From Lotus japonicus (taxonomy: Eukaryota > Streptophyta > Magnoliopsida > Fabales > Fabaceae): a DNA stretch of 64,000 nucleotides. The stretch lies in the NCBI RefSeq assembly GCF_012489685.1, contig NC_080044.1, positions 82,260,732-82,324,731 on the forward strand. Direction: 5' to 3'. Each line of letters opens with the position of its first letter. Position 1 is the stretch's first letter. Of this stretch, positions 57,246 through 64,000 are shown one piece after another. Position numbers and translations under genes: made by a program. Below the pieces are notes generated by a model. It saw nothing but the letters and a program-made list of their open reading frames with translations. It was not told where the DNA came from and made no database searches.

Positions 57246-57670
57246 CGTGTTGGTAATTTGTTTTAAAATTATAGTTTTTGGTAAATAGTTTTATTTATTA
57301 CAACCGAAATTAAAGATCTATACAAGGTAATTGTGAAAGAAAAAAATTCATACATATTAGAGAGCAATGAGTGATTGGTTCAAGTGATACATATTTAATT
57401 CTCCTTAAGTAATGTCTCGAGTTTAAGATTTATGAATTGATAAACACACCCTCTTAAAGGGCTCGCCTCACTAAAAACATGAATGTTCATAGCTTGAACA
57501 TGATTATCTCCGTATTAAAAAAGAAATTGGGTGGTAATTTGCAGTTTAGTAATTGAAGTAAATAGGCAGGAAAATGGAGGGGCTAAAATGTCACAACAAT
57601 ATTAAGTAGGTACTGTGTGTGTGGGTTAACATGGCATGCTGGTTGTGATTCAGTGACAGAAGAGAATAGA

Positions 57671-60600
57671 ATGCGTGTAGGAGGAACTAATCGAATTCTG
57701 AGCTTACTCACTTTCTCTCTCACCAAACCTTCTTCTTCTTCTTCTTCTTCCTCCATCACTTTCCGATCATTCTCCGCCATGGCCGCCGAAGATGATTTCG
57801 TCAAGGGCACTGTTCATTCCAACGGCGTCGCTGTCATCACGCTCGATCGCCCCAAAGCTCTCAACGCCATGAACCTAGGTTTTTTCCTCATCCCTCTAAT
57901 TATTATGCATGCTGTGTTGTGTGTTCTCTCTAGAACAATTGCTCGAGCTTCTCGATTACTTGGAAATTGCTGTTTCAGATTAGTGTCATTAGGTCCAGTA
58001 CAATTTAGGTCAATTTTCATTCAATTTGATGGGAATCAATGATGATCATAGAAATTGATTGTTGAGAAAACTAGGGTTTCTGGTGATGTATATGTTGTAA
58101 ATTAGTTCATTTTTTTGAAATAGTTTTGAGTTAATTATGTAGGATTTGAAGGGGGGAAATGAGGATTTCTCTGTGTAAGTAGTTACCTTACCTCCTGTTG
58201 ATTTTGACTTGACAATCTTAATGGTGCAGATATGGATGTAAAGTATAAAAGTTATCTTGATCAATGGGAATTGGACCCGAGGGTCAAATGTGTGCTGGTT
58301 GACAGCAGCTCGCCTCGCGCCTTTTGTGCTGGTATGGTTTTTGAGAGTCGTCGTTGTGAGAAATAATGCGTAGTTCGTCTATCTTTTAATGCAACATTTT
58401 ATGGAAAGCATGCTTCTAGCTTGGATAGATTATGAATTAACTTCTTTTGCAGATGTTCTGTTTTAGATTTGAGATTATTTTGGTTTAGAGTGCTGGGTAA
58501 GGTTTTGAGAGTCACCTCTGATGGTCAATGCAGGTATGGATATTAAAGGGGTTGTTGCTGAAATACAAAAGGACAAAAGCACACCTTTAGTGCAGAAGGT
58601 CTCATTATATTATTTGTTTTCAACCTCAAGTGTATTAATGCAATGCATGCATGTCCAGTTGCAGTTTTGATGTGCTTCATTGGATATATAGTTTGCTTTT
58701 CTGTCAACATCAACATCTTCTTTGGATGCTACACTGCCTGCTGTTTTATAGTTTATGTTTTGTTAAATAATTTTTTTCTCTATCCCCAAATCTTCTTTCT
58801 TGGTGACCGAGATCTTAGTTTATCTGCAGGCGGTGATGTGAAGCAGATAATAACCAAGAACCACCTGTCAGATATGATTGAGGTCTAGTTGTGTCCTTTG
58901 AAATTAAATGCTATCAGACTCATACCCCCTTTGCTTTATTAAAACCATGCCAATACTAGATGAATATATTTTTTGTTGGAATATTTTGCATTTATAAACT
59001 ATAATCTCTTTACTTAATCACTAGTATGTTTGGATATGCAATAGAACAACCCAAACATGATTTTGGAAGCATTTAATGTGATTTTACACGAAAATTATGT
59101 CTTTTCTAAAACCAAAACTAAGTTGTCTTGAAAGCATGGTTGTGTTGAAATGTAAAGATGATACTTTTACGTTGAGTTTAGATTTTTGTACTAATTTATA
59201 TTTCTAGCTTACTTTTAAGATAAAAGCTTCCAAACACATTATATCACTTGAAACTTAATTCCAGTCAAAATCAACTTGTAAAATCAAGATCAACAATCAA
59301 GTTGTCAAACACTCATCCATGTCAAATTTTGCTCGTGTCAGCATTGATGGCTTTTAAAAACTTCGACATTTTAAAATGATTTGTAATATCTAGTTATTGA
59401 GGAAGTTTCATACTAACGTTAATCCAAAATGAAGTGTATAAGATATGCAACTCTTACTCTATGATTGAAGAAGTCATCACTGCGACATTGTTTTTGTTAA
59501 GCCACAAGGTAATCCCACACCCAAAGATGTGTGGGACTAATAACTGCTTGGGTGTTGGTTTTCCCTTGGCCACAAGGTGTTTCAAGTGGAGGTCCTACTA
59601 ATTCCCCATATGTTGCAAATGTACTAGTTTCTTTCATTTCAAGACCACCATTTTGACAGTCTTTTGCCCCTCGATGTTGAATTTCTTTTGGGTGTTTTAT
59701 TGTTTGTACTGCTAGAATTACATCTGTAGTGTTAGAAATGTAATATAATATAAAATAATTCATGTTTTCACTCAAAACTTACAGTTTTGAGATAGTTGGT
59801 TCTTAACATGGTATCAGAGTGGTCTAGAGTTCGATCATTGTTGCCATAATTATTTATAGTAAAAAAGTTAAATTTAGCACAAGGTAGGGGAGCTTGTGCA
59901 TTATCCATGCTTCAAGCCCAACAAGCTCTTGCGTAATGGGGAATGTTAGAAATAGAATATAAAATCATCCAGTGTCTTCACTCAACTGGTTAAGATTTTG
60001 GGATGTTGGTTCATGAATTACCGTTTGGCTGACCTTAGACAGGTTCTTTTCTCAGTTAGGTTTTAGAATTACCTGCTGAGTGATCTCATATAGAAAAATA
60101 CCACTCAAACTTAAAGGAAATTTTATTGCATATAACCTGCAATGTCATATGTGACTAAATGCTGAGTTGTTAAGAGCCAATGAGAAAGTAAACTAAGTGT
60201 TGTAAGGATGAGAATATTTTGACTTATGCTGGATGAGAGGTTAAATAAGATGAAATTGAATTAGGAATACAATTATTAGAGACAAAATTAGAGTAGCTCC
60301 TGTTGTAGGAAAGATGGTAAACATGTAAAGTATCTTCGTTAGTGGTAAGGTATGTGGGAAAGCACTGGCTAGGATGGTTGATCAAATGGAAGATAGTCCA
60401 ATAATTAGTAGAGGGAGACCAGGGAAAACTGTAAGTCAAACAATTAAGAGAGATTTATTGGTAAACTGTCTATGTTTAAACTTAACACATAGCATTATGG
60501 GATTGCATGGCTCTTGTAACGGACTCCACCTTGTTTAAAATGTCCATGTGTGTTGCTGGTTTCATACTGATTGCTGTCAGAACTATGTTGGATTGTGTGT

Positions 60601-62994
60601 TTTGCTGCATTTTATATTTTTGCATTAGTTGCTTGTACTGTGTTGAAATAATATATCTATTATGCTGCATATTTTAGGTCTTCACGGCTGAGTATTCTTT
60701 GATATGCAAAATTGCTGAGTACAAGAAGCCATATATAAGCTTCATGGATGGAATTACAATGGGTTTTGGAATTGGCTTATCTGGTCATGGCCGCTATCGT
60801 ATCATAACAGAGGTAAGCTCAACATGTAATTAGTTGCCTCGTTTTATTATATATATTTAATGAACTCATAAATAGCCATTCTAGATCTTGTTTATGACTT
60901 TCTTTTACTTTAACATATTTCCAGAGAACTGTTCTTGCAATGCCCGAAAATGGAATTGGCTTGTTCCCAGATGTAGGTTTTGCTTATATCGCGGCTCAAA
61001 GTCCAGGAGAAGGATCTGTTGGTATTTTTCTTAATATAACACAGCGTGTGTAGTTTTTATTGCTTTTATTAGACGTGCTGATAAGGATTTAAGGGTTTTT
61101 AAAGTACAAACCCTTCATGTTCTTCTTTTTGTGCATTATTCTGTCATAATTTGCCTGATGAATACATGTGTGCTGCACTACTGAAGCATCTAGATGTGGT
61201 CTCAGCTCCTGTTACACAGCTTATTAATTTTCTTAAATATGGTTTGAAGGTTCTTCGACTTCTTTTCTATGGAATATCTGAATTCCGATATATTGAAATT
61301 TTTACTGATTGCAGGTGCTTATCTTGGATTGACTGGAAAGAGGATTTCTACTCCTTCAGATGCAATATATGTTGGCCTTGGAACACATTATGTGACATCT
61401 GGAAAGTTAGGTTTATTCAAGGAGGCTCTTTTGGCAACTAACTTGTATGTCAGCTTGAACTTTTTATTCGTTATTGAGACTCTTACTCAAGATATCTCCC
61501 TTTAACCTCATCATTTTGATTGAGTTGGACCCCTGAAATGAAAATAATACATTGACTTGTTTGTGTAGACACAAGTCATTTACTTTCTGCAGCATGCATT
61601 TCACTCATGGTCATCTTGGATGTTTGTTGAAATAATCTATCATAGTATTTACTTTGTTAAGAAGTACATAATTGCAATGAGGGCATACATAATTATCTAA
61701 CAAACTCATTGATTATTCAGTTCCCAGGACCCCCATCAGGACATCAAAGTACTCTTAGCAAGATATGAGTCCAACCCAGAGTCTGAGGCACAATTGAAAT
61801 TGCTTTTACCCGAGATAATTTCTTCATTTGGAGGAAATAAATCTGTTACTAAGACTGTTGATGAGCTTAAAAAACACCAGTCAAGTGCTGACTCTAACGG
61901 TATACTTATTGATCTATTATTTATTTACATTATTCTGAAATGTCCAGATACAGCTGTTGTTGGCTTGTTTCGTATATCAAATATTTATGCTTGAAATTGT
62001 ATGTTTGAATTTGTTGTAAATTGCTTGTCTAGTCGTTGTAATTTTCTTGTATTTTTCTATTTCTAGTTGTGGAGTGGGCTAATGAAGCTCTCCAAGGCCT
62101 TGGAAAAGGTGCTCCTTTTTCCCTTTTCTTGACCAATAAGCACTTCTCTGCAGTTGCCTCCGCAGTAGCGAAAAATGACGTTGAATTATCCACAGTAAGC
62201 ACTTTTTTTGGGGGGATTGGGTGGGTTAAGGTTTCCATGTTTCAAAATTAATTCAATGTCTATTCTCTACATTTGAAATAATCCAGCTTAATGCCGTAAT
62301 GAAAACTGAGTATCGGATTGCCTTGAGGTCTTCACTGCGACATGATTTTGCAGAAGGTGTCCGAGCAGTATTGGTTGACAAGGATCAGGTTTTCTCTTTT
62401 TCTCATGATTTTTATACTTTTTATCTGGTAGTCAAACTTCAATTCTAGTTTTCCCTAAACTAGGAAATGATAGATACAATTGATATGTCTGCAGAAGGCT
62501 AGTGTATGTATTACTCTATTACTAATACTAATAGTTAATACTATCTGTTTTACCTTGGGGGGGGGGGGACTTATTGTCGGTGAAGTGAAATCATGTGAAC
62601 ATATGTTTCTTCTGTGTTTATACTTTATACTTATACTTCCTTTCTTCCCTAGCTTCACAAATACTTGAATCTTCCGTTGAAAGTACACGTGTCTGATTTA
62701 TCTGCATATGAATCTACAGTTTAAAGTATTTAAATTTGGTTCTGTCTTCATATAGTTCCTTCTGTGTGCTATCTTTCTAGTGCTATGAATCTTTTATATG
62801 TTCTCTTTAATCCATGAAGTTATTTATCCTTCAATATTTGGTAAATTTTGTTTCCTGCTTGAGTAATAGATTCAATTACTATTCTCCTGCAGAACCCTAA
62901 GTGGAAACCATCAAGATTGGAAGAAGTTGATCCAGGTGAGGTGGAAGAAGTTCTTAAACCACTAGGACCCCAGGTTGGGGAGTTGTCTGTGTAA
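57671..62994 (+). CDS. 3-hydroxyisobutyryl-CoA hydrolase-like protein (crotonase superfamily), probably mitochondrial
   Basis: Common exons: 57671-57878, 58230-58331, 60678-60812, 60925-61021, 61315-61444, 61721-61899, 62067-62194, 62287-62388 and 62893-62994. Between the second and third of these lie two alternative exons, 58534-58598 and 58830-58882. Using one gives 415 or 411 aa; using both shifts the frame. The N-terminus ([17 protein letters not shown], Ser-rich, few acids) looks like a mitochondrial transit peptide; MAAEDDF at 57779 is an alternative start. Crotonase signatures: [18 protein letters not shown]-(M/G)D-(I/V)[19 protein letters not shown] and [16 protein letters not shown], keeping the Glu and Asp of the hydrolase active site. 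C-terminal [18 protein letters not shown] closes the ECH_2 domain. The family removes CoA from 3-hydroxyisobutyryl-CoA in valine breakdown; for plant 'like' members the substrate is not settled. The 1.8-kb intron before 60678 holds a TRIM. Confidence 0.92.
58534..58598 (+). other. Alternative exon a of the hydrolase gene
   Basis: This 65-nt exon is preceded by caatgcag and followed by GTCTCA. It encodes [19 protein letters not shown] then VQK and leads in frame into [10 protein letters not shown] (60678). It provides Met before the Asp of the oxyanion motif. It is homologous in position and phase to exon b at 58830-58882. Confidence 0.85.
58830..58882 (+). other. Alternative exon b of the hydrolase gene
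   Basis: This 53-nt exon is preceded by tatctgcag and followed by GTCTAG. It encodes [18 protein letters not shown] and also leads in frame into [10 protein letters not shown]. It provides Gly before the Asp, as in classical HIBCH (GGD). Exon lengths 65 and 53 are both 2 modulo 3, so including both shifts the downstream frame. Confidence 0.8.
59730..60013 (+). mobile_element. TRIM (terminal-repeat retrotransposon in miniature) in a hydrolase intron
   Basis: The 5' LTR (59730-59808) runs tgttagaaatg … ggttcttaaca. It is followed at once by tggtatcagagt, the primer-binding site complementary to initiator Met tRNA. The internal part is only about 135 bp and ends in a purine stretch (atggggaa). 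The 3' LTR starts tgttagaaatag at 59944 and decays near 60013. No coding capacity and no clear 5-bp duplication are seen, so it is an old copy. Confidence 0.75.
62557..62568 (+). repeat. Run of 12 G in a hydrolase intron
   Basis: An uninterrupted G12 follows 'taccttgg' in the intron before the last exon. Such runs are rare in AT-rich plant introns and unstable in replication and sequencing. Confidence 0.85.
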
Positions 62995-64000
62995 TTAGAA
63001 GGAAAATGTAGTCTTCTCGTTTCTACAAATGCATTGTAGAATTACAGGGACTGCATCAAATAAACAGATGGTGTTATCAATGGGTCCATGCAAGTGTCAG
63101 GGAACTCCATGACCTTGGATAGGTCGATGTTCCAACTAGTATACCCACATCTGTAAAAATGAAGGCTATGGTTTCGAAAATTTATCTTATTTTTGTAATT
63201 TTTGGAAACTTTGAAATGTCCAAGACTTTACATGGAATAGATGGGCGAGTGCATTTAATGCCTTCATGAGACCTTATCTCATGTAGGTCTAAAATAAGGT
63301 TGTGTTTGTTTTATCATCTTTTTGGGAATGATATTTAAGAGAATACTATGACTAAAATGTTATTATGTAAGTTTATCAATATGTTTGATAGACTTATAAA
63401 GATTTTGTTAGACTGACCATCTAGGAATCAAGTATAGAAAAGATGAGTGTTTAACGTAGTGATAGAAAAATGAAAATTTTGTAATTTCTGAAATACAATT
63501 ATCCACTCAATCTCGGCTAATATTCTCAACATAGGAGATTTGATATTGTAATGCAATTCCCCTTGATTTTTCTCAGAACCCAAATATCAAAAATGAAGAT
63601 AACATTAGAAGGAATGAAGAGGGAAGGAAGAGAAAGTACACCAATGAAAGTTGCACGCTTGAAGGCTAAGAGCCTAAGACCATTCCTCAAAATCACTCAA
63701 CCTTTCTCTTTCCAGCTTTTTCCTATTCAACTCGGCTTCATAATTTCTGTATCTTCCACTCATTTTCTTCTGCAATCAAAGACTACAAATTATGTTGTTG
63801 ATCATACGTTGAATAGTTTCAAAAACCTACTACTACATTCACATTTGACCAAAAGAGAGAACATAGAATCCGAGGATGCCTCCTAGAATCTTACTGTATA
63901 TGATCCAAACATAGCCTCATTTCTGAGAAACACGCATTGAAGATCACTTAGATTGTCTCGAAAAACTGCTTCAACTTGCAGTTAAACAGCTCCACTTAAC
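62995..64000. other. Hydrolase 3' UTR and intergenic sequence
   Basis: The 3' UTR follows the stop at 62992-62994. Beyond about 63300 I see AT-rich DNA. A 111-aa open frame (63551-63886) has no recognised domain, weak codon character and no promoter-like context; I do not call it. The next gene lies outside the window. Confidence 0.5.

Follow-up and report, generated by a model that had tools for sequence, protein, structure and literature searches.

Conserved, mutually exclusive exons in a gene for a 3-hydroxyisobutyryl-CoA hydrolase-like protein of Lotus japonicus

We are highly confident that the gene described here, which lies on the + strand of a 64,000-nt stretch of Lotus japonicus DNA (the window) with its coding part at positions 57671-62995, is the L. 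japonicus gene for "3-hydroxyisobutyryl-CoA hydrolase-like protein 3, mitochondrial," and that it carries a conserved, already reported pair of mutually exclusive exons, here named 3a and 3b. The pair is not new, because it has been known since 2008, including its presence in Lotus (Wang, O'Toole, Brendel and Young 2008, BMC Plant Biol 8:17; PMC2277414; this and the other papers given by PMC number are cited throughout from excerpts).

Gene structure and the alternative exon pair

The HIBCH-like gene was rebuilt from the sequence, and all of its introns were GT-AG. The exon coordinates, lengths, phases, splice sites and proteins obtained in this way were the same as those in the preliminary description of this DNA. 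The features of the gene are as follows.

57671..57878, + strand: exon 1, coding part with start codon and Ser-rich N-terminus (protein identical to P0002)
58230..58331, + strand: exon 2, ending in phase 1, ...SSPRAFCAG, with the first base of the Gly codon (sequence, gene model)
58534..58598, + strand: alternative exon 3a, 65 nt (gene model; length and placement as for the 65-nt exon in the excerpts of PMC2277414)
58579..58580, + strand: GC dinucleotide, the donor required by the fused NCBI isoform X3, P0001 (4 of 9 donor positions match)
58830..58882, + strand: alternative exon 3b, 53 nt (gene model; length and placement as for the 53-nt exon in the excerpts of PMC2277414)
60678..60812, + strand: exon 4, constant, starting in phase 0 (gene model)
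60925..61021, + strand: exon 5, constant, with the putative catalytic Glu178 and Asp186 in 3a numbering (gene model; both invariant in 48 sequences)
61315..61444, + strand: exon 6, constant (gene model)
61721..61899, + strand: exon 7, constant (gene model)
62067..62194, + strand: exon 8, constant (gene model)
62287..62388, + strand: exon 9, constant (gene model)
62893..62995, + strand: last exon, coding part including the stop codon, which ends at 62994, one base before the end of the interval

The exon 2 donor junction at 58331 reads GTGCTG/gtatgg, the boundaries of exon 3a are aatgcag/GTATGG...CAGAAG/gtctca, those of exon 3b are tctgcag/GCGGTG...ATTGAG/gtctag, and the exon 4 acceptor at 60678 is attttag/GTCTTC. 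The Ser-rich N-terminus encoded by exon 1 looks, by eye, like a mitochondrial presequence. A second in-frame ATG is located at 57779-57781 (residue 37, MAAEDDF), where the Lotus record P0025 begins, and several further records of the family are similarly short at the N-terminus; the start of a record at this ATG raises the possibility of a form that lacks the presequence.

Both alternative exons follow the phase-1 exon 2 and are joined to the exon that begins in phase 0 at 60678. Splicing with 3a alone gives an open frame of 415 aa and with 3b alone one of 411 aa, while the two exons together lead to a stop after 128 residues and the omission of both to a stop after 107, which bears out the earlier claim that either exon alone keeps the frame and both break it. 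NCBI isoform X1 of Lotus japonicus (P0002) has exactly the sequence of the 3a product, and a 330-aa Lotus record, P0025 (I3SUC5), shares 329 of its 330 residues with the 3b product; hence, the exon pair does not result from chance. Exons of such pairs usually, though not necessarily, stem from the duplication of a single exon. The likeness between the two exons themselves was matched or exceeded by 299 of 2000 shuffles at the DNA level and by 69 of 5000 at the protein level, where it comes mostly from the shared G-x-D-x-K head.

The preliminary description also asked whether the pair had been described before, and it had been: the exons of this gene family were called "mutually exclusive" by Wang et al. 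(2008; PMC2277414). In the Medicago gene AC145449_47 the 65-nt exon 3 and the 53-nt exon 4 give proteins of 418 and 414 aa; both single-exon forms were backed by ESTs in Medicago as well as in Lotus, and At3g24360, LOC_Os06g39344 of rice and LjTC_2465 of Lotus showed this pattern too, while At4g13360 has the 65-nt exon only (PMC2277414). The sizes of the two exons, their order, their place and the gene family are the same in these genes as here, and LjTC_2465 is very probably the gene analyzed here. The Medicago products differ in length from those of Lotus (418 and 414 vs 415 and 411 aa), while the exon pair itself is without difference. These ESTs, including those from Lotus, support the reading of the exons as mutually exclusive alternatives. 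The word "strictly," which had been attached to this claim, does not hold, as one Medicago EST lacks both exons (PMC2277414) and a fused isoform is present in databases. No isoform with both exons was reported among the ESTs in the excerpts of that study. Since the pair is old and already on record as an example of mutually exclusive splicing in plants, finding it here adds little in itself.

The spread of the exons among plant proteins was analyzed using three protein searches, of which the best 120 matches each (of 7756, 440 and 3523) gave 242 different proteins, a depth that covers flowering plants. When these were sorted by sequence motif, 123 had 3a only, 53 had 3b only, 63 had pieces of both and three had neither, and a stricter motif pattern gave 124, 48, 58 and 12, respectively; these counts are not frequencies, because the second search was directed at fused proteins. 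The 3b-only proteins come from many families. For 13 species, one 3a and one 3b record were paired by hand from the listings, and the protein after the segment was identical within the pair in 11 of them; the Lotus records were one residue apart, and those of Protea agreed at 247 of 290 residues, which suggests that the Protea pair are probably two paralogues. Among the matches listed, 3a was present in Magnolia, Tasmannia, Aristolochia, Persea, Cocos, Elaeis and Typha, and the grasses Setaria, Triticum and Lolium were represented by fused records with a recognizable 3b. All 15 clusters of "lgn" source in the three listings had 3a only (hand count). If these clusters are assembled transcripts, which is our guess, 3b may be rare, although clustering at 90% identity could mask it.

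Records that contain both exons

The fused NCBI Lotus isoform X3 (P0001) consists of 3a shortened by 20 nt, so that it ends at 58578, followed by the entire 3b. It could represent a third, in-frame mRNA, in which the shortened 3a is joined to 3b across a GC-AG intron with its donor at 58579, and which encodes a real 426-aa protein. This explanation is consistent with the fact that P0001 is exactly the predicted fused form, that the same kind of junction is found in 31 of the 242 listed proteins, in eudicots as well as grasses, and that GC-AG introns make up about 1.2% of plant introns (PMC6310983, in excerpt). However, the GC donor site agrees with the donor consensus at no more than 4 of 9 positions, the excerpts of the 2008 EST study report no both-exon isoform (PMC2277414), and the fused protein scores lower against Pfam ECH_2 than the 3a protein (342.2 vs 348.4 bits). 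The residue at the junction is also at odds with such an mRNA, because it is Ser in 30 of the 31 fused proteins and Asn in one, while 115 readable 3a-only proteins have Asn (55), Thr (28), Ser (26) or others (6) there. It follows from the genetic code that an intron cannot begin with GC where the codon is for Asn or Thr, although this comparison was made on proteins only. In Argentina, Castanea and soybean, Asn in the ordinary 3a segment and Ser in the fused form occur within one species. Hence, a genuine third mRNA is unlikely, and the fused isoform is probably an annotation artefact, as judged from the sequences. The contrast between the junction Ser and the mostly Asn or Thr residues of 3a-only proteins suggests that the fused form was spread between annotations by protein alignment.

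In a further 32 of the 242 listed proteins, the pieces of both exons are longer or are joined in other ways, and many of these proteins have translated intron between the pieces, as is yielded by gene predictors. Pieces of both exons are thus found in 63 of the 242 listed proteins (for example P0001, P0012, P0113 and P0146). The both-exon records look like recurrent misannotation, and with so many of them among the listed proteins, annotations of this gene in public databases should be used with caution.

Choice between the two exons

Several explanations of how only one exon is included were considered and rejected. The intron between 3a and 3b is 231 nt long, which does not fit exclusion by lack of room, and U2/U12 incompatibility was discarded as no [AG]TATCCTT donor is present within 57601-63000; both observations argue against a hard-wired block. 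Weak donors are also not a special cause. The 3a donor matches 5 of 9 positions and that of 3b, the lowest in the gene, 4 of 9, but the eight other donors match just 5 to 7 positions, four of them 5, so that the contrast is slight. No strong selector-like pairing was found in 58332-60677. This region contains five inverted repeats of 14-24 nt with 75-88% complementarity, and both arms always lie in the intron after 3b.

The choice could also be explained by recursive splicing, in which the joining of exon 2 to 3a would rebuild the exon 2 donor, and this donor would be respliced to 3b so that 3a is dropped. Exon 3a begins with GTATGG, and the 9-mer that its joining to exon 2 recreates, CTGGTATGG, is identical to the exon 2 donor; at 58534, CAG/GTATGG agrees with the donor consensus at 7 of 9 positions. 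On the other hand, the presence of Gly-Met-Asp in that phase forces nearly all of the rebuilt donor, given a Gly codon ending in T. Recursive splicing also leaves unexplained why 3a avoids joining 3b, and the evidence for the rebuilt donor comes from the DNA of one species, which makes this route very improbable. Our main reading is that productive mRNAs would be those carrying exactly one of the two exons, because the reading frame is lost, and an early stop reached, if both are included or both left out; mRNAs with both exons or with none would likely be targets of nonsense-mediated decay, and splice-site choice would contribute too.

The 1795-nt intron downstream of 3b contains at 59809-59819 the sequence TGGTATCAGAG, which resembles the site where initiator tRNA primes copia-like retroelements. 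Close by lies a pair of 21-22-nt repeats with a spacing of 209-214 nt (59730-59762 and 59944-59971). This region is possibly a small retroelement remnant.

Family assignment and the swapped segment

For both isoforms the best PDB match by sequence was human HIBCH (3bpt), with E values of 2.4e-60 for 3b and 9.3e-61 for 3a. The human protein has 32% identity and carries Gly where 3a has Met; to our knowledge, human HIBCH is without such an exon pair. The plant mitoribosomal protein mS47 (9evs, 6xyw) scored lower with 3a (171 vs 209 bits) and had 28% identity. In family scans 3a scored 348.4 bits with Pfam ECH_2 and 315.5 bits with the NCBIfam HIBCH model PRK05617 (cut-off 274). The full Lotus 3b was represented in these scans by the Cicer 3b protein P0010, with 349.8 and 314.4 bits, respectively, and by the 330-aa Lotus fragment P0025, which reached 258.6 bits and is under the NCBIfam cut-off. 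Both members of the Cicer pair, with 314.4 and 315.2 bits, are above it. By the family models and by the Glu and Asp residues discussed below, both isoforms fit the HIBCH-type crotonases, and hydrolysis of 3-hydroxyisobutyryl-CoA is predicted for them. The structure models had a mean pLDDT of 73 for 3a (48 sequences) and 55 for 3b (Cicer P0010, 38 sequences), and only the 3a model was compared with PDB structures. The swapped segment is not reliably readable from either of them, as pLDDT is below 50 for residues 98-109 of the 3a model and 91-120 of the 3b model.

The swapped residue directly before the Asp is Met105 in 3a and Gly in 3b, and in the 3bpt alignments of both isoforms it is aligned with the second Gly of AFCAGGD of human HIBCH. 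We take this position to be the first oxyanion-hole residue, equal to Leu71 and to Ala98 of rat hydratase. Thus, the earlier claim that the exons swap an oxyanion-hole residue stands as far as Met vs Gly at the HIBCH AGGD motif is concerned. Glu178 and Asp186, in the AMPE...FPDVG stretch of a constant exon, are aligned with 3bpt and invariant in 48 sequences, and we assume that they are the catalytic residues. The oxyanion contact is made by a main-chain amide, and the position is occupied by differing side chains, such as Leu in DmdD (PMC3660561, in excerpt); because of this, Met or Gly need not by itself alter catalysis.

What the swap means depends on how these observations are weighed. The alternative segment could be without functional meaning, in which case one of the two proteins would be a splice variant that is merely put up with, its activity being equal to that of the other or absent, and we consider this quite possible, if somewhat short of an even chance. 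It agrees with the main-chain nature of the contact and the Leu of DmdD (PMC3660561), with the 65-nt exon being the only one in At4g13360 (PMC2277414), and with the equally good fit of the 3a and 3b isoforms to HIBCH (3bpt, NCBIfam). It is harder to reconcile with the ESTs showing both exons in frame in Arabidopsis, rice and legumes (PMC2277414), or with the 53 proteins among the 242 listed, drawn from many families, that contain 3b alone. The other reading, which we put forward tentatively and with rather less than even confidence, is that one gene gives rise to two mitochondrial thioester enzymes of differing preference or rate, with the oxyanion residue and the adjoining segment exchanged by regulated splicing that predates the monocot/eudicot split. 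In our main reading, the swap would affect the residue taken as the first of the oxyanion hole (Met or Gly) together with the segment behind it. As the catalytic Glu and Asp would remain constant, the two proteins probably diverge in the shape of the pocket, in preference or in rate, and probably not in the type of reaction.

In the excerpts of published work, a knock-out of At3g24360 altered several metabolites, including a kaempferol glycoside and oxylipins (PMC6314165), and exon skipping in rice Os06g39344 was observed in one-day abamectin samples (PMC6927115), which would fit a regulated switch. No report of activity assays comparing the two isoforms was found in the literature searched, which was mostly without subscription papers. 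If the swapped position is the oxyanion-hole residue, as we assume, the two isoforms of one protein that differ there would be a natural test of that residue.
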